Of a DNA stretch of 31,679 nucleotides, positions 14,662-29,873 are shown in pieces. Within the stretch, counting starts at the first letter, position 1. Each line of letters opens with the position of its first letter. The stretch is taken from IMG/VR virus record IMGVR_UViG_3300026321_000011, positions 1 through 31,679 of that record; one strand, written 5' to 3'. The notes beneath the pieces were generated by a model. That model was given only the letters and a program-made list of their open reading frames with translations. It searched no databases and was not told the origin of the DNA. The position numbers and the translations under genes are program-made. The stretch comes from a virus.

Positions 14662-16008
14662 TTACATAAGGTTGTCAACAAGAACACGTCTGTAGTAGCG
14701 GTTCTTATTAGGATCGAGATCTCCACCACCTTGATCGGTTCCTTCAGCGAAGGGGTTAGCAACAAGACCGTAACGAGTCTTGAATCCGATTTTTGGTTGG
14801 AAGGTGTCTTGTCCGACTGCACGTACCATCTGTAGTGGAACGTAAGGGCAGTAGAATATTCCAGCATCATAGGCAGAAGATCCTTTGTACCCACCAACAT
14901 AGTAGTGACGATCACTAACGTTAGCAGAGTAAGGGTCAACATAGACCTTGATACGACCGTTAAGAGTACCTGCAAGGGTGCTGCTGTTGTCGTCTGGAAG
15001 TAGGTTGCTATTACCAGCAAGAGCAGGTGTGTAATCAAGTACACCAGCCATTGATAGTGCAGAAGCAACGTCAGCGGAACAAATTAAGATGTTCCCCTTT
15101 CCACGACGAGTTTCGTGCCCGATTGCGTTCATATCTCTTTCAATCTGGAAGAGAAGACCTTTGAACTTCTCAACAGACCATCTACCATTGGAGTCAACAT
15201 CTAAGTCGAATATTCCAGCAGTAGCAGTGTTGTTCTGAGCACCAGGTCTTGCAACCTTGTATACAGATCTAACAACTTCTCTGTTGATTTCAGCAAGAAC
15301 CTCTGTTGAGAGGATGTTTGCTAGCTCGGACTCTGCATCCAAACCGTGAACGGCTTTGAGGTCTTGAGCCAATTCTAAACTGTACTCAGCTTTGAGTGCT
15401 CTGGACTTAGCAGTCACAGTAACTTTCTCAATACTGAAGTTCATTTCAGCGAACTGGTTTCCTGCAGCATCACCTAATGCTTCAGATTCTGCCGTTGGCA
15501 TACCTTCTGAAGTATTGTAGGTTCCACTGTCATTAAGGAGACCTGGGTTAGATCCAGCTTGTGCTGTTCTTCCTAGATCGCTTGCTGCGTTCTCTCCAGA
15601 GAACTCAGTATCAGCTTCGTTGAAGAACGATTCAGCACCAGCAGTACGGTTGGTACCGTAGCGTGAACGCATTGCGAAGATCAATCCTGTAGGACCAGTC
15701 ATTGGCTGAACGCCAGCGATGTCATAAGCAATTAGCTTAGGCATACTACGGCGAATCAGACTGATCAAAACAGGGTCGAAACCAGCAACTGGACCAGTTG
15801 CGGTACTACCAGCGGTGAAACCACCTGTACCTGCACTCATAGTAGGAGCGGCTTCAGTTAGTACACCAGCCTCCTCTCTGAGAAATTTTTCTTGGTTTTC
15901 GAGCAGGACTGCGGTAACTGCCTTTCTATAGTTATCCTTGATGTTATCCACACCATCGGCTTCTAGAACGGGGTTCCACTTTTCCTGCAACTGTTCTGCA
16001 TTGAACAT
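14662..16008 (-). CDS. gp23: Major capsid protein gp23
   Basis: This is the major head protein: 448 residues against 521 in T4, the shorter form usual in marine T4-like phages. The N-terminal propeptide is helical (EQLQEKWNPVLEADGVDNIK) and ends at a gp21-type cleavage site LTE/A after residue 52 in EAGVLTEAAPT. The mature part has the HK97-type signature FDPVLISLIRRSMPKLIAYD, then IAGVQPMTGPTGLIFAMRSR, and near the C-terminus GFKTRYGLVANPF, all diagnostic for the gp23 family. TAGGA precedes the ATG as ribosome binding site. It follows gp22 and ends in a strong terminator. No late motif is visible in the 50-base gap upstream. Confidence 0.97.
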   Translation of the reverse strand: MFNAEQLQEKWNPVLEADGVDNIKDNYRKAVTAVLLENQEKFLREEAGVLTEAAPTMSAGTGGFTAGSTATGPVAGFDPVLISLIRRSMPKLIAYDIAGVQPMTGPTGLIFAMRSRYGTNRTAGAESFFNEADTEFSGENAASDLGRTAQAGSNPGLLNDSGTYNTSEGMPTAESEALGDAAGNQFAEMNFSIEKVTVTAKSRALKAEYSLELAQDLKAVHGLDAESELANILSTEVLAEINREVVRSVYKVARPGAQNNTATAGIFDLDVDSNGRWSVEKFKGLLFQIERDMNAIGHETRRGKGNILICSADVASALSMAGVLDYTPALAGNSNLLPDDNSSTLAGTLNGRIKVYVDPYSANVSDRHYYVGGYKGSSAYDAGIFYCPYVPLQMVRAVGQDTFQPKIGFKTRYGLVANPFAEGTDQGGGDLDPNKNRYYRRVLVDNLM

Positions 16009-17120: not shown

Positions 17121-17771
17121 TTACAAAGATCCAAGGAAATGGGAGAACGCGGAAAGCTTTCTCTCTTCCAGGGCTTTGCGGGATGGAGCATTGTCTATAA
17201 GACGTTTAGCACGCTCTAAATCTGATTCTAATATGGCACCATTTTGCCATACCCATTCCTTCCCTTCCATAATGCCATTAACAAAGGCATCTGGTGCGCT
17301 AGGATCAGCAACAATATCTGCTGCTGTAGCAAGGATGAAATCATCAGCGACCATTTTGCATCCATCTTGTTCCTTCAGTGATCCAATACCACGAGAAGAA
17401 ACGCCAAGCTTAACTCCTTCACCAAGTAAGTTCTTAGCAATGTTACCCATAGGGGTATCCAGAATCCTAGCCTTACCTCTGAAATTCGTGTCCTCTCTTA
17501 CAAGTGAAGTAATTAAGTGAGACACACGATCCAAATTTACAGTTGGACCATCAGGGTGACCAAGTTCGCCAAGTGCTCTACCACTTTTAACGAAAGATTC
17601 ATTGTACTTGTTTACTTCACGCTCCAAAGTATTGATAGGATAGTACCTACCATTCCTATTTTTTAGGTTACCTTGAAGGAAAGTGCCTTCGATATACAAA
17701 TTCTTCTTACCACTCTTGGTGGATTCTTCGAGAACTTGTATGTCTTCAATCTGTTCCGTTATCAGTTTCAT
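17121..17771 (-). CDS. gp21: Prohead core protease gp21
   Basis: The serine protease that matures the prohead by cutting scaffold, propeptides and internal proteins. At 216 residues it matches T4 (212). The probable catalytic residues are His72 in GELGHPDG and Ser125/Ser126 in GVSSRGIG; the conserved segment ADIVADPSAPDAFV carries the Asp region. It begins inside the end of the small gp67-like gene (26-base overlap), with GAGGAG upstream. The C-terminal tail (SRKALEERKLSAFSHFLGSL) is basic. Its expected cleavage rule, (L/I)-x-E before a small residue, is met in gp23 of this window. Confidence 0.95.
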   Translation of the reverse strand: MKLITEQIEDIQVLEESTKSGKKNLYIEGTFLQGNLKNRNGRYYPINTLEREVNKYNESFVKSGRALGELGHPDGPTVNLDRVSHLITSLVREDTNFRGKARILDTPMGNIAKNLLGEGVKLGVSSRGIGSLKEQDGCKMVADDFILATAADIVADPSAPDAFVNGIMEGKEWVWQNGAILESDLERAKRLIDNAPSRKALEERKLSAFSHFLGSL

Positions 17772-23227: not shown

Positions 23228-23482
23228 TCACCAGTCAGGATATATTTCTTCAATCCTCTCAAGTATCTTCTTATGTTTCTTTCTGTTGAATGTAATTCTT
23301 TTAATAGTACACAACTTACATTCATATGCGTAAGCTGACGGAAATGGACCTCTACCCTTACGTGTCAGATAGAAGTCATCTAGTAAACTTTTCTCTTCAC
23401 CACAGACTCTACAAGTACGGTTGACCAATAATAAATGTTCCAACTCGTACTGAGACTCTAGTTCCACTAGCGGTACTCCCAC
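23228..23482 (-). CDS. Small Cys4 zinc-binding protein between gp17 and gp18
   Basis: The 84-residue protein has two CxxC pairs, Cys24/Cys27 in NRTCRVCGEEKSLLDDFYL and Cys55/Cys58 in YAYECKLCTIKR, followed by a basic tail (TFNRKKHKKILERIEE). This spacing resembles the zinc-ribbon or treble-clef start of HNH nucleases, but the His-Asn-His catalytic part is missing, so it is probably a DNA- or protein-binding zinc finger. Its start overlaps the end of gp17 by 16 bases, so it is made with the large terminase. Some phage packaging systems use a small HNH partner of the terminase; this could be a relic of such a gene, but that is inference. Confidence 0.8.
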   Translation of the reverse strand: MGVPLVELESQYELEHLLLVNRTCRVCGEEKSLLDDFYLTRKGRGPFPSAYAYECKLCTIKRITFNRKKHKKILERIEEIYPDW

Positions 23483-25116
23483 ATAAATGCTCGATCTCCA
23501 TACTCATCTGCGTGCCACCTATCTCCGTCATCATCAACAAATGACGTGTCTTCCATTCCATCATCAACGAAACCGAAGGGTGCCATATCTGCTTCTATTG
23601 CTTCTCTTTGTTCTTCATACATCCTTGCTCTCACGTCATTGTCGTGAAGTTCTTTGAAGTATTCAGATACAGCTAGCCACGCAAACATAACTAAACACAT
23701 TGCTAAATCATCATTACATCCTTCTTCTGCTTGCCAAGACTGTCCCTTCTGTATAAAAGTTGTTAATTCTGCAATCACATCATAGTCATTTATTAATATC
23801 TTATCATCTTCAACTAGCTGTTTTAGATTAGAACAACCTAATTTCTTAACAGCAGAACTCATCTTGACACCTAATTGTACCTTACCACCTGAGAAACCTT
23901 GACCTACTACCTGACCAGCACGTCCTCTCATAGCACACATTAGTAAATTATCATATTCTAAATCGTACTGGATGATGTCTGCTACCTGTGCACCAACGTC
24001 ATTAACCTCAACCATAATATATGCGTGGTTATATCCCTTGGCAGTATCCACAATTATATCTGGGAACAACATAGGTTTAACATCTGCGTTCCTATACTTG
24101 GCAACTAATTTATAAGGTACCGTGGTTGTATCAAATACACAGAAGGCTGAAAAGTCTCCACCTATACCACGTGCTACATCAACCGTGATTGTGTAATTAT
24201 GTTCTGGTACTGGTGATACATACACGTCCAATCCTTTACTAGAATGTACTGGATCTTCGTATGTCATAACTCTTAGCTTAGATGCAGATACTAAAGTATC
24301 AACAGATCCTAAGAACTCACACTCAAACTCAACTCTGAACTGCTGTTCAGATGTGTTGGCAATAGTTGTCTTCTTCCATTCCTCATCTCTTCCTGGTACC
24401 TGACTCCAGTGTACCTCTGTATTAATATACTCATTCTTACCACGCTCTGCATCGTGCCAGAGCTTGTAATACATATTCATCCCGTGTGGGGTAGATATGA
24501 TAATAACTTTAGTTGACTTACCAGAAGATATAGTAGGATAGACAGAACTGAAAAACTGCTCAGCAATATTGTTCGGAACAAACGCGAATTCGTCCAAAAA
24601 TATAATGTTAAAGGACATACCCCTAACAGCAGAAGCACTAGTACTTGCAGCCAAGAGACGGCTTCCGTTCTCCAATTCCACTGACCCTTTGTTCCAGCCA
24701 ATAATACCTTGTTGCATCCATTTAGGAAGATTCTCATAAGAAAGTTGTAAGCGTCCCAACATTTCTCTTGCAGTGGCTGCTTTGTTTGCGAGGATTGCGA
24801 CGTTGACGTTTCCGTTGAAGATGACATACCAAAGTAAATATGATGTAACAACAGTGGACTTACCAGACTGTCGTGGAAGCTTAGCAATATTGAATCGGTT
24901 ATTGTGAAACCGATCCACCATCTCTTCTTGGAAGTCATACAGATCAAACGGTATGACACCCTCATCTAGAGAAACAATCTTAATATACTTCTTAATAAAG
25001 TAGACAGGATCTTTACTACATTTAATGAACTCTTCTACCTGTTTAGGTGTGAAGTTCGTAGAAACATTTGCCTTCTTTAGATTAGGATTGCCAAGATATA
25101 TCTGATTCTCAGCCAT
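23467..25116 (-). CDS. gp17: Terminase large subunit gp17
   Basis: The DNA packaging motor and headful nuclease, 549 residues (T4: 610). The ATPase half has Walker A PRQSGKST (81-88), Walker B IIFLDEF (171-177) and coupling motif STPHG (208-212). The RNase H-like nuclease half shows the acidic residues in TITVDVARGIGGDFSAFCVF, MVEVNDVGAQVADI and CNDDLAMCLVMF. The extreme N-terminus and the C-terminal tail (after about 505, rich in Asp/Glu) are variable. It starts three bases after the SNase gene. Confidence 0.97.
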   Translation of the reverse strand: MAENQIYLGNPNLKKANVSTNFTPKQVEEFIKCSKDPVYFIKKYIKIVSLDEGVIPFDLYDFQEEMVDRFHNNRFNIAKLPRQSGKSTVVTSYLLWYVIFNGNVNVAILANKAATAREMLGRLQLSYENLPKWMQQGIIGWNKGSVELENGSRLLAASTSASAVRGMSFNIIFLDEFAFVPNNIAEQFFSSVYPTISSGKSTKVIIISTPHGMNMYYKLWHDAERGKNEYINTEVHWSQVPGRDEEWKKTTIANTSEQQFRVEFECEFLGSVDTLVSASKLRVMTYEDPVHSSKGLDVYVSPVPEHNYTITVDVARGIGGDFSAFCVFDTTTVPYKLVAKYRNADVKPMLFPDIIVDTAKGYNHAYIMVEVNDVGAQVADIIQYDLEYDNLLMCAMRGRAGQVVGQGFSGGKVQLGVKMSSAVKKLGCSNLKQLVEDDKILINDYDVIAELTTFIQKGQSWQAEEGCNDDLAMCLVMFAWLAVSEYFKELHDNDVRARMYEEQREAIEADMAPFGFVDDGMEDTSFVDDDGDRWHADEYGDRAFMWEYR

Positions 25117-25119
25117 AAA

Positions 25120-25680
25120 TTAGAATGGTCCTGCAATTTGATCAGTTGTAGTTCCGTGTCCCAACTCAGGAAGTGGATCACCTACACTAGGTTCTATGAC
25201 ATCATCGATGTCTGGTGGTGGAGGTAGTGTACCTAGTTCGTATCTAATATCTCTTAACTCTTGAAAATCTTTTTGCTTTGTACCTCCATCATATGCCCAA
25301 GCATATCCTTCTTCGATCATCTGTTCATTCAAAGAAACTAATTCCTCATTAATATACAACCAGCCAAGGAGTCTACCATACTTACCCATACCACCTTTAA
25401 GTTCAGTACGGATTGTAAGTTCATCTCCATCACCTGCAATAGTATCTTCTAACTTCTGCTTTAACCAATTAGTAGCATCAATTCCTAATGCTTTCTCTTC
25501 TAAATCCCTTGTCCTCTTCTCTGGGGTGTCTACTCCCGCAATTCTTACCCGTTCTTTCTTGTATAAATCGAATCCAAGATCTATGGTGACATCTATCGTG
25601 TCTCCGTCCAGTACCTTGTTGATCTCCGTCACTCGGAAGTTGTAACAACTCTTCCTTGATGGGGGGGTCATCGCTCCCAT
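25120..25680 (-). CDS. SNase-type (thermonuclease-like) endonuclease
   Basis: The 186-residue protein is a staphylococcal nuclease homologue. The motif VTEINKVLDGDTIDVTIDLG (17-36) carries metal-binding Asp residues, RVRIAGVDTPEKR (44-56) the catalytic Arg and Asp, and GKYGRLLGWLYI the second Arg strand; LNEQMIEEGYAWAY completes the OB-fold. A Pro/Asp-rich tail of about 35 residues follows. It cuts DNA or RNA with Ca2+ in relatives. The ATG at 25680 is supported by GGAG seven bases before it and a perfect TATAAATA late motif upstream. The first 12 residues cross a run of seven C and share DNA with another open frame. Its place beside the terminase suggests a role in packaging or host DNA breakdown late in infection. 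Confidence 0.88.
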   Translation of the reverse strand: MGAMTPPSRKSCYNFRVTEINKVLDGDTIDVTIDLGFDLYKKERVRIAGVDTPEKRTRDLEEKALGIDATNWLKQKLEDTIAGDGDELTIRTELKGGMGKYGRLLGWLYINEELVSLNEQMIEEGYAWAYDGGTKQKDFQELRDIRYELGTLPPPPDIDDVIEPSVGDPLPELGHGTTTDQIAGPF

Positions 25681-26115: not shown

Positions 26116-26123
26116 TATTTATT
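26116..26123 (-). promoter_or_regulatory. Late promoter motif (AATAAATA)
   Basis: AATAAATA on the minus strand overlaps the stop codon of the zinc-knuckle gene and lies 24 bases before the ATG at 26092. It may start a transcript covering the 60-residue and membrane protein genes. Confidence 0.5.
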
Positions 26124-26217
26124 CCTTCTTAGGGCATTGTGTGGAAATATGGTCATAGCTTCCACACTTCTTACAGCAGTCTTTTTTCTCTGCTATGAAC
26201 TCCTTAAAGGACTTCAT
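26119..26217 (-). CDS. 32-residue CCHC zinc-knuckle protein with capsid-targeting-like leader
   Basis: This very short gene reads MKSFKEFIAEKKDCCKKCGS, then YDHISTQCPKKE. The first ten residues resemble the capsid-targeting leader of T4 internal proteins (MKTYQEFIAE, from memory), including the I-x-E that gp21 cuts after. The rest contains Cys-x2-Cys-x4-His-x4-Cys, the exact retroviral-type zinc knuckle spacing that binds single-stranded nucleic acid. The ATG overlaps the stop of the Lys/Ala-rich gene in ATGA, a strong sign that it is translated. It would be one of the smallest zinc-knuckle proteins; a packaged nucleic-acid-binding role is inference. Confidence 0.75.
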   Translation of the reverse strand: MKSFKEFIAEKKDCCKKCGSYDHISTQCPKKE

Positions 26218-26930
26218 TTTCCTGATACTGCTTTGTATGCTTTCTTAGCAAATGATACTGTGTCCTTGACACCTTCCTTTGCTCCTTTAGCAAATTCCTT
26301 AGCACGTTTCTCAGGTGCTTTACCCTTAGCACGTTGCTTCTTGTATGCTGCTTTAGCATCTCCTACTGCTTTGTTATGCTTCTCAACACCCTTCTTAACA
26401 TAGGATGTTACCTTACTTAGAACACCTTCTTTCTTAGCAGGTTTCTTAGGTTGCTTAGCTTTCACTGTCTTAACAGTAGCAACAACCTTCTTCTGTGTAG
26501 CAGCTTTCTTCTTAGCAGGAGCCTTCTTGACAGCAGCTTTCTTAGGTGCGTCATCTTCATAATTTGTATTGTCTTCGTCACCATACTTATTCTTGGCAGC
26601 AGTGGTCTTAGCATACTCACCTTTACCTGCTGTCTTACGTGCAGCATCACCAGCATCAACCTTTGCTTTAACCTTCTCATATGAAGGTGCATTTGCTGCT
26701 GCTCTCTTTGCTGCTCTTACTGCTTCCTCAAGATATTCTGTTGGAGGATTTACTACAAAGTCAGTAAATTCTTCTAGTCCAATCTCTTCTACGATGAGAT
26801 CGATACCTTCTTCGTTTATACCTTCTTCAACAAAGAAATCAGTAGCTACTTCTATGCTTGATTGTACCCATTCCTCAGTCAATACTGCCTCAGGATTAGA
26901 GTCTACTAGGTACCGTGAAAAACTTTTCAT
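26214..26930 (-). CDS. Lys/Ala-rich protein, candidate packaged internal protein
   Basis: The 238 residues split in two. Residues 1-70 are acidic and helical, starting MKSFSRYLVDSNPEAVLTEE, with a gp21-like site LTE/E after residue 19. From about 70 to the end the protein is Lys/Ala-rich and histone H1-like, with repeated PAKK/KKAA elements (APKKAAVKKAPAKKKAATQK) and a basic C-terminal part ending KKAYKAVSGK. Such tails bind DNA without sequence preference. The ATG is preceded by AAGGAG and overlaps the upstream stop (TAATG). Similar basic proteins are found in cyanophage genomes and are often called structural. A head-internal DNA-condensing role fits but is not proved. Confidence 0.85.
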   Translation of the reverse strand: MKSFSRYLVDSNPEAVLTEEWVQSSIEVATDFFVEEGINEEGIDLIVEEIGLEEFTDFVVNPPTEYLEEAVRAAKRAAANAPSYEKVKAKVDAGDAARKTAGKGEYAKTTAAKNKYGDEDNTNYEDDAPKKAAVKKAPAKKKAATQKKVVATVKTVKAKQPKKPAKKEGVLSKVTSYVKKGVEKHNKAVGDAKAAYKKQRAKGKAPEKRAKEFAKGAKEGVKDTVSFAKKAYKAVSGK

Positions 26931-27076
26931 TAAGCTGCTCCTTTGTTGTGGTCTGGGTGTCTAGGACAATTGTTTTCGTGTTTATCTATCCAAGCCTTAG
27001 CGTTCCAATGATTCTTTGGAGACTTAAGACCGCAGTATACACACTCATACTGTCCACTTTCTAACAGTTTAGCCAT
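26930..27076 (-). CDS. Small C2HC zinc-finger-like protein (48 aa)
   Basis: The start is the ATG at 27076, which has GAGGA eight bases upstream and overlaps the stop of the preceding gene by eight bases; a longer frame from 27112 lacks such a site. The product MAKLLESGQYECVYCGLKSP has Cys12-x2-Cys15, then His33-x3-Cys37 (DKHENNCPRH), a pattern that can bind one zinc ion as a C2HC finger. The middle (KNHWNAKAWIDKH) could be the helix. Function is unknown. Confidence 0.75.
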   Translation of the reverse strand: MAKLLESGQYECVYCGLKSPKNHWNAKAWIDKHENNCPRHPDHNKGAA

Positions 27077-27305
27077 TAGCCAATTCCTCTGCTTTCTGAT
27101 TCCATTCGGCAAATGATGAACTGCAATCAGGGGGTTGTGGGTATTTATATCCTTTCATCTTCCTCCATTTATTATGGAGTGCTCCCATCATCCAAGACTG
27201 ACTGAGACTCTTTGGTCCATTCTCAAGAAGATCTAGTTCGTACCTACTGCTAGTGTACCCTTTATACTCTTCTCTCCAATTGGAATCGTCCCACTCAGTT
27301 GTCAT
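27069..27305 (-). CDS. Small hypothetical protein (78 aa)
   Basis: The ATG at 27305 is chosen because AAAGGAG lies in front of it and it overlaps the stop of the large basic-protein gene. The product starts MTTEWDDSNWREEYKGYTSS and is rich in Trp, Tyr, Asp and Glu, with a central helix (SLSQSWMMGALHNKWRKMKG) and a C-terminal helix (AEWNQKAEELANG). No domain is recognised. A longer frame upstream (to 27377) lies inside the neighbouring gene and is not supported. A chance-like TATAAATA lies inside the coding region (27142-27149). Confidence 0.75.
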   Translation of the reverse strand: MTTEWDDSNWREEYKGYTSSRYELDLLENGPKSLSQSWMMGALHNKWRKMKGYKYPQPPDCSSSFAEWNQKAEELANG

Positions 27306-28080
27306 AATGAAAGCTCCTTTTCTTAGTGTTTTTAGGATGTTTAGCACTTCTGACTTTATTGTCAGTAGTTTCACCATCTCCTCTAGGATGCTGACCTGCT
27401 TTTGTCTTACCTATATTGTAAGATGAACCAGGTTTCTTGGACTGAGTATCGTGTAAGCGTGCAGGTTTGTCCTTATCTTTTGTGATAACAGATTCCTGTC
27501 CGTGTTTTCTACCAAACCTACGAATGAGTTTGCCGTGCTTACGCTTTGACATTCCCTTACCAGGAGTGGTATGATACGATACTTCACTGCCCTGTTTGCC
27601 ATCATCGTACTTATACTTTCCAACACTCTTCTTGTAACCAATACCCTTCTTCTTAAGATCTTTCTCAAGACCCTTTCGTTTCTTGCGGTTCTCGGTCTCA
27701 CTGTCACCACGGTCAGCAGAAATGTGACCAGTGACTTGAGTCTTGGATTTGCTTACGGCTCTGGCTAGTCCTCCTTCGGAGATGAACTTCCCAAATGATA
27801 GCATACTATACCCCTGAGTGTGAAGGTTCATATCCACCCCCTTGACATCATTCCCCTTCTGGGCTTGCTGTACCTTAAGTCTTTGCTGTTGAATTTTCTT
27901 AATATTTAACATTAGCTGCCTTCTATCAAGCATCGCACCCTTCTTCTGGATGAGATTCAATCTTGCACTTGAACTAGATGGTGCTGCATTATTAGATGCT
28001 GCCCTAGCAGGAGGACGCTTTTCCTTCTGCGGTTTGATTGTTAAATTTTCTGTGGGTGATTTACCGTTAGCGTCTGGCAT
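27295..28080 (-). CDS. Basic protein with internal capsid-targeting-like segment
   Basis: The 261-residue protein is strongly basic. Residues 1-92 are a Pro/Ala/Ser/Gln-rich extension (LNIKKIQQQRLKVQQAQKG). At Met93 a segment MLSFGKFISEGGLARAVSKS begins that resembles the leader of T4 internal proteins with a gp21-type ISE/G site, followed by TGHISADRGDSETENRKKRK, a domain I recall from other cyanophage proteins, and an Arg/Lys-rich end (GDGETTDNKVRSAKHPKN). An AGGGG ribosome binding site lies six bases before the internal ATG (27804), so a shorter second product is possible. GGAGG before 28080 supports the long form. Function unknown. Confidence 0.8.
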   Translation of the reverse strand: MPDANGKSPTENLTIKPQKEKRPPARAASNNAAPSSSSARLNLIQKKGAMLDRRQLMLNIKKIQQQRLKVQQAQKGNDVKGVDMNLHTQGYSMLSFGKFISEGGLARAVSKSKTQVTGHISADRGDSETENRKKRKGLEKDLKKKGIGYKKSVGKYKYDDGKQGSEVSYHTTPGKGMSKRKHGKLIRRFGRKHGQESVITKDKDKPARLHDTQSKKPGSSYNIGKTKAGQHPRGDGETTDNKVRSAKHPKNTKKRSFHYDN

Positions 28081-28081
28081 A

Positions 28082-28627
28082 TCAGCCTCCCACTACTTGT
28101 ACCTGTTCTACTACAACACCACCGCTTCCAGATCCTGCGGTTAGTTTAACCACTCTGGAAATTACAGGTATGTTACCAGCAGTAGCATCAGCAGCAGATA
28201 ATGCATAATCACCTGACGATGAAGATGAATCAATATCAGTTGTAATAGTAGTGGCAGTAATAGCAGTTACTTTCTTTCCGTCAGCAATAGCAGATTCATA
28301 TGCAGCGACAAACCCATCAGTATCTCCACCGTCTAGGGTCTCTACATAATCTCCAACACTAAATGTGTGGCGACCACCATTCGAATATCCTTCAACGGTT
28401 ATTACTGAACCGTTAGCATCAGTTGCACCAACAATCTTGGAGTGCTTTGCTTTACCTGCAGAAATTAATAATGCTTCTCCAGCTGCAAGTGTGATAGCAG
28501 GACCCGCGTCAACTTGAATACTAGATGCTGCAGCGCAGTAACATCGTAGTGTACCCGTCTTCACTTTGATATAACCAGAACCTGAGGCACTGATTGTTTG
28601 CGTATCTAATACATTTAATACTGACAT
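28082..28627 (-). CDS. Hypothetical Ser/Thr/Gly-rich beta protein, likely virion-associated
   Basis: The 181-residue protein starts MSVLNVLDTQTISASGSGYI and is composed almost entirely of small residues and short strands (GPAITLAAGEALLISAGKAK, VTAITATTITTDIDSSSSSG), with a DNA-neutral composition typical of phage surface or fibre-like proteins. The middle (FSVGDYVETLDGGDTDGFVA) may form a small domain. I recognise no family. It has a late promoter motif overlapping the gp16 stop and is followed at once by the basic protein gene. Virion location is inferred from composition and late control only. Confidence 0.8.
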   Translation of the reverse strand: MSVLNVLDTQTISASGSGYIKVKTGTLRCYCAAASSIQVDAGPAITLAAGEALLISAGKAKHSKIVGATDANGSVITVEGYSNGGRHTFSVGDYVETLDGGDTDGFVAAYESAIADGKKVTAITATTITTDIDSSSSSGDYALSAADATAGNIPVISRVVKLTAGSGSGGVVVEQVQVVGG

Positions 28628-28648: not shown

Positions 28649-29053
28649 TTATTTATCCTGTTGGGACTTTAGAAATTTAGCAAGATCAGCTGTGCTCCCA
28701 ACGAACATAGTATTATTTGTAACTGGACCAGAGATTTTAGCTGGACCCTCCTCAAGTTCTTGCATTTTCTTTTGGAGATCTATTAACTTATCCGTGGTAT
28801 CTGCCACGTTCTTGATTAAGTTACCAGCAACTTCATATGATCTAGGTGAATCAGTCTGTCCAGCAACTTCAAGAATACCATCAACAGCCTCCTGTCCTTT
28901 CTCTATAAGAGAATAGAGATTGCCTCTAGTGTACTCATAATCTTTGCTGACCTGTTCCTGCTTCTGTAAGATGCTAGGGTCTGGTCCGACATCAACGATA
29001 TCAGTCTTTTCTTTAGGTATAATAGATGTTTCTATATCGAGAGCATCTTCCAT
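28649..29053 (-). CDS. gp16: Terminase small subunit gp16
   Basis: The DNA-recognition subunit that starts packaging and regulates gp17. The best start is the ATG at 29053, giving MEDALDIETSIIPKEKTDIV, which lines up with the T4 N-terminus MEGLDI; the frame is open to a GTG at 29116 and ATG at 29104 inside gp15, so a longer form is possible. The 134 residues (T4: 164) include QTDSPRSYEVAGNLIKNVAD (matching T4 ADSPRHMEVFATL), a coiled-coil segment TTDKLIDLQKKMQELEEGPA and a C-terminal NNTMFVGSTADLAKFL like the T4 end. No strong ribosome binding site is seen for any start. Confidence 0.88.
   Translation of the reverse strand: MEDALDIETSIIPKEKTDIVDVGPDPSILQKQEQVSKDYEYTRGNLYSLIEKGQEAVDGILEVAGQTDSPRSYEVAGNLIKNVADTTDKLIDLQKKMQELEEGPAKISGPVTNNTMFVGSTADLAKFLKSQQDK
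28650..28657 (-). promoter_or_regulatory. Late promoter motif (GATAAATA)
   Basis: GATAAATA on the minus strand overlaps the gp16 stop codon, 23 bases before the ATG at 28627. It would start the transcript for the accessory block between gp16 and gp17. Confidence 0.55.
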
Positions 29054-29063
29054 ACCCTTAAAC

Positions 29064-29873
29064 TTATTCGTCAACTCCTGTGACTGGGTTTCTTGAGAGT
29101 CCATCCTGGAAATCACTAGTTAGTTCATTAAATCCGAAGTTATCATCTGGGTCTGCATCAACAGGATCAGGTGTAACAGTATACCTGACTTCTCTTGCAG
29201 CAGTTACCTTACTGTCGGTTGCAGTATCGACAATAGCCTTCTTAATAAGTCCTCCAGCAGATGTGACAGGACCGTATAAGTATGTCTTACAGGTAAAGGA
29301 CATTGTATATATCAGAGTTCTTCTCGTTGTATAGTCACCTTCGTAATCATCTTCATAAGAACAAGAGTTTAATACAACTGGGAAGTCTTTAACATCACCA
29401 AGTTCAGGTACCAACTTAATAGTTAGACTGAATACTGGTTGAAAATATGGTAAGATCTGCTCAATAATTTGCAGACCATCATCCTGATTCTTAGCAAGAA
29501 TTGCTAATTCAAAATCTATATTATAAGGTACTGGCATAAATGCCTTCTTCACTGCAGCAGTACCTTGTGTTTCTGGCGGTGAATACCTTATAGTTTGTGT
29601 TGGTGAAACCTTTCTTGTACTATCATATGCAAAGTTTGTTATCTCAAATGATATTCTAGGTAAGGTAATCTGTGTAGCTTGCTTACCAGTAAGGTTTCCA
29701 GTTTGTTGGAGACGTGCTAAAAACTTTTGCTTTGGACCATATGCCAAAGGCACTTTCATATATTCATAATCCGTAGCAGTTTTCTTCCTACGTATTTCAA
29801 TATTATTGAATAGTGTACCGAAGGCGACAACGGTCTTTCTGAATATTTCGTTGTATGTATACGTACCTAACAT
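29064..29873 (-). CDS. gp15: Tail sheath stabiliser and completion protein gp15
   Basis: The protein that caps the finished tail and joins it to the neck. It has 269 residues (T4: 272). The family pattern is seen in MLGTYTYNEIFRKTVVAFGT, LFNNIEIRRKK, the conserved KVPLAYGPKQKFLARLQQ near residue 45, ITLPRISFEITNFAYDSTRK, PVPYNIDFELAILAKNQDDG, and the Tyr-rich TTRRTLIYTMSFTCKTYLYG. It comes right after gp14 (two-base gap). The last 50 residues are variable and Asp-rich. No late motif is visible before it, so it likely shares the neck transcript. Confidence 0.94.
   Translation of the reverse strand: MLGTYTYNEIFRKTVVAFGTLFNNIEIRRKKTATDYEYMKVPLAYGPKQKFLARLQQTGNLTGKQATQITLPRISFEITNFAYDSTRKVSPTQTIRYSPPETQGTAAVKKAFMPVPYNIDFELAILAKNQDDGLQIIEQILPYFQPVFSLTIKLVPELGDVKDFPVVLNSCSYEDDYEGDYTTRRTLIYTMSFTCKTYLYGPVTSAGGLIKKAIVDTATDSKVTAAREVRYTVTPDPVDADPDDNFGFNELTSDFQDGLSRNPVTGVDE

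Follow-up and report, generated by a model that had tools for sequence, protein, structure and literature searches.

Do three small genes of an uncultured T4-like phage bear the address by which T4 sends proteins into its head, and if they do, what is being sent? The question is raised by positions 26119-28080 of the IMG/VR virus record IMGVR_UViG_3300026321_000011, whose 31,679 bases (hereafter the window, meaning the whole stretch analysed) form a viral contig with T4-like gene order. A preliminary description of this DNA had pointed out similar N-terminal leaders on three proteins encoded between gp16 (28649-29116) and gp17 (23467-25116), and had suggested that the proteins enter the prohead core, are trimmed by the prohead protease gp21 and leave with the DNA to condense DNA or block host defence. 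We consider it probable, at roughly 0.8, that the leaders target the capsid in the manner of the T4 internal proteins and that their best cargo is an S-adenosylmethionine (SAM) lyase encoded at 27295-28080. The preliminary description thus appears to have read the address and the fate correctly, but to have missed the enzyme.

The observation of three leaders is confirmed. MKSFKEFIAE begins a 32-residue peptide (26217 to 26188, minus strand), MKSFSRYLVD...VLTE/E begins a 238-residue protein (from 26930, minus strand; the slash marks a cut site), and MLSFGKFISE/GG stands at Met93 of the open reading frame (ORF) 27295-28080 (from 27804, minus strand); all three genes lie between gp16 and gp17. 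Mutagenesis of the T4 IPIII leader assigned targeting to positions 4 and 7 and processing to positions 8 and 10, and Asp at position 10 allowed targeting while blocking processing (reviewed in PMC9026906). We coded this rule as ^M..[FYW]..[FYW][ILVMFC].[ED], that is, aromatics at 4 and 7, an aliphatic residue at 8 and Glu or Asp at 10. Applied to every ATG in six frames of the window, it matched only the three leaders, against a mean of 0.15 matches in first-order Markov shuffles of the window (0.075 in ORFs of at least 30 residues). The candidate leader peptides of the phage include MLSFGKFISEGG and MKSFKEFIAE. The T4 peptide that had been given for comparison, MKTYQEFIAE, is correct, as IPII and IPIII start MKTYQEFIAEA, and IPI starts MKTFKEFTSTTTPVSTITEA. 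When the leader was searched for in its DNA form as a positive control, the complete T4 genome yielded only ipII, ipIII and gene 61.1, and ten cyanophage records yielded eight sites; the reversed pattern found none in either. Gene 61.1, the sole match in T4 outside the known internal proteins, adjoins 61.2 and encodes 54 residues starting MKTFKEFIKEDMVAGDSGG (NC_000866 18966-19130, minus strand; loci L149 and L153 here); judging from this leader, its product may be an unrecognised internal protein.

The product of 27295-28080 is T4-GC 110, labelled 'hypothetical' in every annotated relative examined, and the corresponding PHROGs (12788 and 26015) are both annotated 'unknown function'. The long minus-strand ORF comprises a 92-residue extension (27805-28080) that is missing in stand-alone relatives starting at the leader Met, the leader itself as residues 93-102 (27775-27804), with a predicted gp21 cut after E102 and before GG, and a mature domain of 159 residues plus stop with a net charge of +26 (27295-27774). 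Both internal starts, Met84 and Met93, have Shine-Dalgarno-like sequence, and the leader is N-terminal if translation begins at Met93 and internal otherwise. GC 110 stands alone, starting at the leader Met, in Prochlorococcus phage P-SSM2 and several metagenome contigs, and elsewhere forms the C-terminal part of ORFs of up to ~1000 residues. Its body matches PF23780 (S-AdoMet_lyase) at 30.5-31.9 bits against a curated cut-off of 28, and 51 of 52 GC 110 relatives match at E<=0.01. G62, Y64, E74, Q103 and E104 are invariant in all 52 family sequences and are the equivalents of G56, Y58, E69, Q104 and E105 of the SAM lyase Svi3-3, where these residues, E105 among them, are conserved and important (PMC7877911). 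When GC 110 is aligned with T3 SAMase and the S-CREM2 and S-N03 homologues, T3 G55, Y57, E68 and the Q of QDCV share the same columns. We regard the assignment of GC 110 to the SAM-lyase family as solid, and the predicted SAM-lyase activity is likely.

The leader is conserved together with this domain. In 62 of 62 distinct relatives the domain is immediately preceded by two aromatics (the first may be Leu) and then [LIVF]xE/G, either as the N-terminus or within fused ORFs, and E10/G11 is invariant in 52 of 52; leaderless homologues, which the preliminary description had named as an outcome that would speak against it, were not among them. At least seven fused ORFs have no start codon within 27 codons upstream of the leader, and its retention there suggests that selection acts on the peptide and not on the start site. 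More divergent SAM lyases, at 38-78% identity to S-CREM2 ORF6, almost always start with a leader where the N-terminus is complete (among them MKTYSEFIQEASLNRI, MKSYSQFISEASLNRL and MKTFPEFMLECSSLNEGG), and some of these leaders, such as MKTYSEFIQEA, are almost that of T4 IPIII. The distance from the aromatics to the cut is not fixed in the relatives, just as in T4, where IPIII is cut after residue 10 and IPI is predicted to be cut after residue 19. A separate observation concerns the fused ORFs themselves: in relatives (L062, L087, L127, L136 and others) the gp16-gp17 region shuffles small Lys-rich modules, including DUF3008 N-termini, CW.GY..KGTK..GK..P.CVK and ALDIVK..I..K.GKGAIM, so that ORF make-up is variable and resembles that of polyvalent proteins.

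Virion proteomes bear on whether such proteins reach the head. In S-CREM2 virions, mass spectrometry (MS) detected the leader-bearing SAM-lyase homologue ORF6, annotated as a SAM hydrolase, with 19 unique peptides, and also an APH/ChoK-like kinase, a cytidylyltransferase and a Cas9-annotated nuclease (PMC10665884, Table 3). That report offers no mechanism for the presence of these proteins and leaves CsCl contamination open as the reason for that of ORF6. When the N-termini of 218 S-CREM2 ORFs were scored with the strict rule, it picked four, namely the SAM lyase, the kinase, the cytidylyltransferase and ORF136, and MS had detected every one of them (p=0.0027, or p=0.0003 if annotated structural proteins are excluded). 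The near-matches ORF13 (MKDLHSFLTE) and Cas9-annotated ORF12 (LRFASFMAEA, at about residue 17) were detected too; a flexible form of the rule added two undetected ORFs, which look like chance matches. Strict matches occurred at 6 of 433 N-termini vs 3 of 1720 internal Met residues. Orthologues in S-CRM01 have strongly diverged bodies and have kept their leaders (MISFDQFLSE, MKLFNQFFKEA and MKKLDQFLTE). The cytidylyltransferase bears a strict leader in 80 of 80 metagenome contigs, has been reported in the virion proteomes of several cyanophages, and was detected, with the leader MRFRQFIIEA, in virions of S-SZBM1.

How would the system work? The leaders would bring the three proteins into the prohead core, where gp21 would trim them after [LIF]xE, as site conservation suggests, in 27295-28080 after ISE; the mature proteins would then exit the head together with the DNA. 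A SAM lyase delivered at injection would destroy host SAM before phage gene expression, and the loss could starve SAM-dependent restriction, methylation or BREX-type defence, an effect like that of the T3 enzyme but achieved by a packaged protein rather than by the first gene product. Both halves of this scheme have precedents, as T3 SAMase has been shown by others to act in counter-defence and the T4 internal proteins are injected anti-restriction factors (PMC12373910, PMC9391042). Because the relatives of the SAM lyase keep the address, marine T4-like phages with the tagged enzyme probably inject it with their DNA and so disarm the host at once. The suggestion that the proteins block host defence gains a concrete basis, since the body of 27295-28080 belongs to the class of enzyme that T3 uses against SAM-dependent restriction; for the window proteins, we infer that they are ejected into the host and act against its defence, and an effect of SAM depletion other than anti-defence is possible.

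The evidence for the other two proteins is weaker than for the SAM lyase. The 238-residue protein has a 19-residue propeptide, MKSFSRYLVDSNPEAVLTE (26874-26930, minus strand), consisting of a leader with Asp10 and then LTE/E, and a body (26214-26873; phrog_3477, E 1e-8) in which an acidic helical domain (charge -13) precedes a basic tail rich in Lys and Ala (+29). E19 is invariant in 28 of 28 relatives; close relatives retain the leader and distant fused forms keep only the E19 site. An AlphaFold model shows helices only, at low confidence. This is probably another internal protein, with a leader that directs it to the head, a tail that binds DNA and the conserved LTE19, which may serve as the cut site. 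The 32-residue peptide, whose ATG overlaps the stop codon of the 238-residue ORF (ATGA), is probably a minimal internal peptide made of the leader (26188-26217, minus strand) and a CCHC zinc knuckle, C-x2-C-x4-H-x4-C with C15, C18, H23 and C28 (26119-26187), whose PF00098 score of 21.0 bits barely exceeds the cut-off of 20.8; further ORFs in related loci contain the same knuckle as a module. Strongly basic or nucleic-acid-binding bodies had been claimed for all three proteins, which holds for the SAM-lyase domain (+26 over 159 residues), the tail of the 238-residue protein and the zinc knuckle, but not for the acidic domain. Likewise, capsid targeting and removal of the leader by gp21 are well supported for 27295-28080, through its conserved leader and the homologue in S-CREM2 virions, and less so for the other two.

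Several other explanations deserve weight. The two smaller leaders could be chance or remnants, with 27295-28080 alone being packaged, an explanation that we find doubtful: the 32-residue ORF has near-identical relatives only and distant relatives of the 238-residue protein lack the second aromatic, but the excess of matches over shuffled DNA falls entirely in coding-strand ORFs of one operon, E19 never varies, and the small ORF starts at an overlapping ATGA. Comparable doubt attaches to the idea that the long fused ORFs are polyproteins cut by gp21 at many sites into several internal proteins. A leader-like segment does persist inside ORFs approaching ~1000 residues, some of them without a nearby start codon; however, [LI]xE/[AGSN] sites upstream of the SAM-lyase module numbered 16, against 18.8 in shuffles. 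We have rejected multi-site processing in this form, as LxE sites are not enriched and no junction other than the one preceding the SAM lyase has support.

It is less probable still that the proteins are scaffolding or DNA-condensing core parts that act in assembly only, the SAM-lyase fold being kept as a non-catalytic structural or nucleic-acid-binding module. Their very basic bodies, the location of the gene in the head/neck operon and the head-assembly defects of T4 IPIII mutants (PMC9026906) would suit such a role, yet a purely structural protein would not need the residues for SAM binding and catalysis that all 52 sequences preserve. Least credible, in our judgement, is a SAM lyase made early in the infected cell, as T3 SAMase is, with a leader-like segment that has nothing to do with the head. 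T3 SAMase is indeed early, is not packaged and has no such leader (PMC7877911; our alignment), but the 62 relatives all have the leader and E/G, nearly all divergent homologues have leaders, the S-CREM2 homologue was found in virions, and the gene, located between gp16 and gp17, has upstream of it an ATAAATA that resembles a late promoter.

A number of observations weigh against the view that the leaders are T4-type addresses carrying a SAM lyase. The phage is uncultured and its proteins are known from sequence, not from virions. The virion proteome of S-SZBM1 lists neither the SAM-lyase fusion (_194) nor the leader-bearing _191 and _192, and the leader rule showed no enrichment there, with detection of none of two strict and one of three flexible matches; this is real but weak counter-evidence, because Lys-rich proteins yield few usable tryptic peptides. 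The kinases of S-N03 and S-B68 have a decayed leader. The Asp10 of the 238-residue protein is the residue that in T4 blocks processing though not targeting (PMC9026906), and the 32-residue peptide has an unusual Lys after its cut site (IAE/K) in addition to its narrow set of relatives. The AlphaFold model of GC 110 has a beta-alpha-beta-beta-alpha-beta core at low confidence (predicted local distance difference test, pLDDT, 58), and the Foldseek result obtained with it points both ways: among 765 PDB matches at E<=10 the phage SAM lyase 6ZNB came first and T3 SAMase (7OCK) came third, which speaks for a SAM lyase, but the E of the best match is a weak 3e-3. When PDB sequences were searched with a profile built from the 52 GC 110 sequences, no SAM lyase was returned; it was Pfam, together with the S-CREM2 homologue, that made the connection.

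Since the same address stands on other enzymes of cyanophage virions, such as the cytidylyltransferase and the kinase, it looks like a general cargo code. We therefore lean towards a broader proposal, held less firmly than the conclusion about the window: T4-like cyanophages may load a SAM lyase, a nucleotidyltransferase, a kinase and an HNH/Cas9-annotated nuclease through one T4-type code and deliver them with the DNA, so that the leader alone would predict the injected proteome and in many of these phages a packaged SAM lyase would be what strikes the host first. The Cas9-annotated virion protein of S-CREM2 (L138 7704-10313, minus strand), for which Pfam and NCBIfam gave no Cas9 match, bears its leader not at the N-terminus but at about residue 17, as do its homologues in S-N03 and S-B68 (L147 11243-14161 and L148 11138-12889; GFSNFLKEA and LGFSSFIAEA). 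Further leader-bearing ORFs are found at L136 5658-6155 and 6155-6472 (S-SZBM1_192 and _191), L132 1501-2016 and L004 4507-4767; proteins with a leader and DUF6321 (MKTFKQYITEA, MKTYSQFIEEG), one starting MKSFKSFLSES and P-SSM2 GC 111 (MKSFKQFLEEA) are candidate internal proteins by their leaders.

The surroundings of the cluster are those of a T4-like head operon. The minus strand carries gp23, gp22, gp21, gp20, gp19, gp18 and gp17, then gp16, gp15, gp14 and gp13; these names come from reading the sequence and from synteny with annotated cyanophages rather than from tests of their own. The relatives are Kyanoviridae (Prochlorococcus phages P-SSM7, P-SSM4 and P-SSM2 and Synechococcus phage S-SSM5), of which these four isolates carry GC 110, and contigs from marine metagenomes. 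The predicted processing enzyme gp21 (17121-17771, minus strand) matches PF03420 above cut-off (E 6e-35 over 17268-17714). The major capsid protein gp23 (14662-16008, minus strand) has a conserved GVLTE/AAP site, and LTE/A is kept in the gp23 propeptide region of the window phage, S-SZBM1 and S-CREM2, in agreement with their gp21 cutting after LxE. The ORF that heads the cluster (28082-28627, minus strand; T4-GC 403 by synteny) has an ATAAATA, the core of a T4-type late promoter, ~22 bases upstream (28650-28656, minus strand). The window has nine copies of this motif, no more than chance would give, but all nine lie on the coding (minus) strand, several shortly upstream of head genes, and this one-sided placement is as expected for T4-type late promoters. 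The positional counterpart of the ORF at 28082-28627, S-SZBM1_195, is among the most abundant proteins of that virion (exponentially modified protein abundance index, emPAI, 2.66), which makes a head-decoration role possible for the product. Directly upstream of gp17, 25120-25680 (minus strand) encodes a nuclease-like protein whose P-SSM7 homologue is annotated with PF00565; other cyanophages name it an endonuclease. An NCBIfam search of the window proteins gave nothing useful.

In the open-access literature, to which our search was confined, we found no T4-type capsid-targeting leader in cyanophages and no packaged SAM lyase defined by a leader. The delivery principle is known from T4 and the enzyme from T3; what is new, as far as can be told, is the pairing of the two and its reach across the enzymes found in cyanophage virions. 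A conserved 'hypothetical protein' of marine cyanomyoviruses would thereby become a probable head-packaged SAM lyase, and the presence of a cytidylyltransferase, a kinase and a SAM hydrolase inside cyanophage particles, a puzzle of published proteomes, is offered a mechanism. If the proposal is true, ten residues predict proteins injected by some of the ocean's most abundant phages.

The closest known systems are the T4 internal proteins IPI, IPII and IPIII, which share with the window proteins an N-terminal leader of 10-19 residues, aromatics at 4 and 7, an (L/I)xE cut, a gp21 in the genome and basic cargo; the IPI propeptide MKTFKEFTSTTTPVSTITE has the same 19-residue length and layout as that of the 238-residue protein. 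They differ in that the T4 proteins inhibit type IV restriction enzymes and are not themselves catalytic (PMC12373910), whereas the best cargo here is a predicted SAM-destroying enzyme, and in that the leader of the window's relatives can lie inside fused ORFs. Polyvalent proteins are similar in layout to these fused ORFs, being multidomain and predicted to enter the host along with the phage DNA and counter its defence, but in the part of that study used here (PMC5512222) their targeting is not by a T4-type leader and no SAM lyase with one was found. T3 SAMase and Svi3-3 (PF23780) share with GC 110 the Pfam family, the G-x-Y, E and Q residues and the predicted core; T3 SAMase is early and leaderless, whereas the GC 110 family has a capsid-targeting leader and a basic C-terminal tail. 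Nearest of all is S-CREM2 ORF6, with a leader and a homologous SAM-lyase domain (phrog_12788, E 1.5e-29), a longer C-terminal region than GC 110, and an account by its authors that, in the portion of their report drawn on here (PMC10665884), makes no mention of the leader; ORF6 has been detected in virions, whereas GC 110 of the window is known here from sequence. With GC 110 and these relatives, the T4 internal-protein system would come to include delivered enzymes besides its non-catalytic inhibitors.

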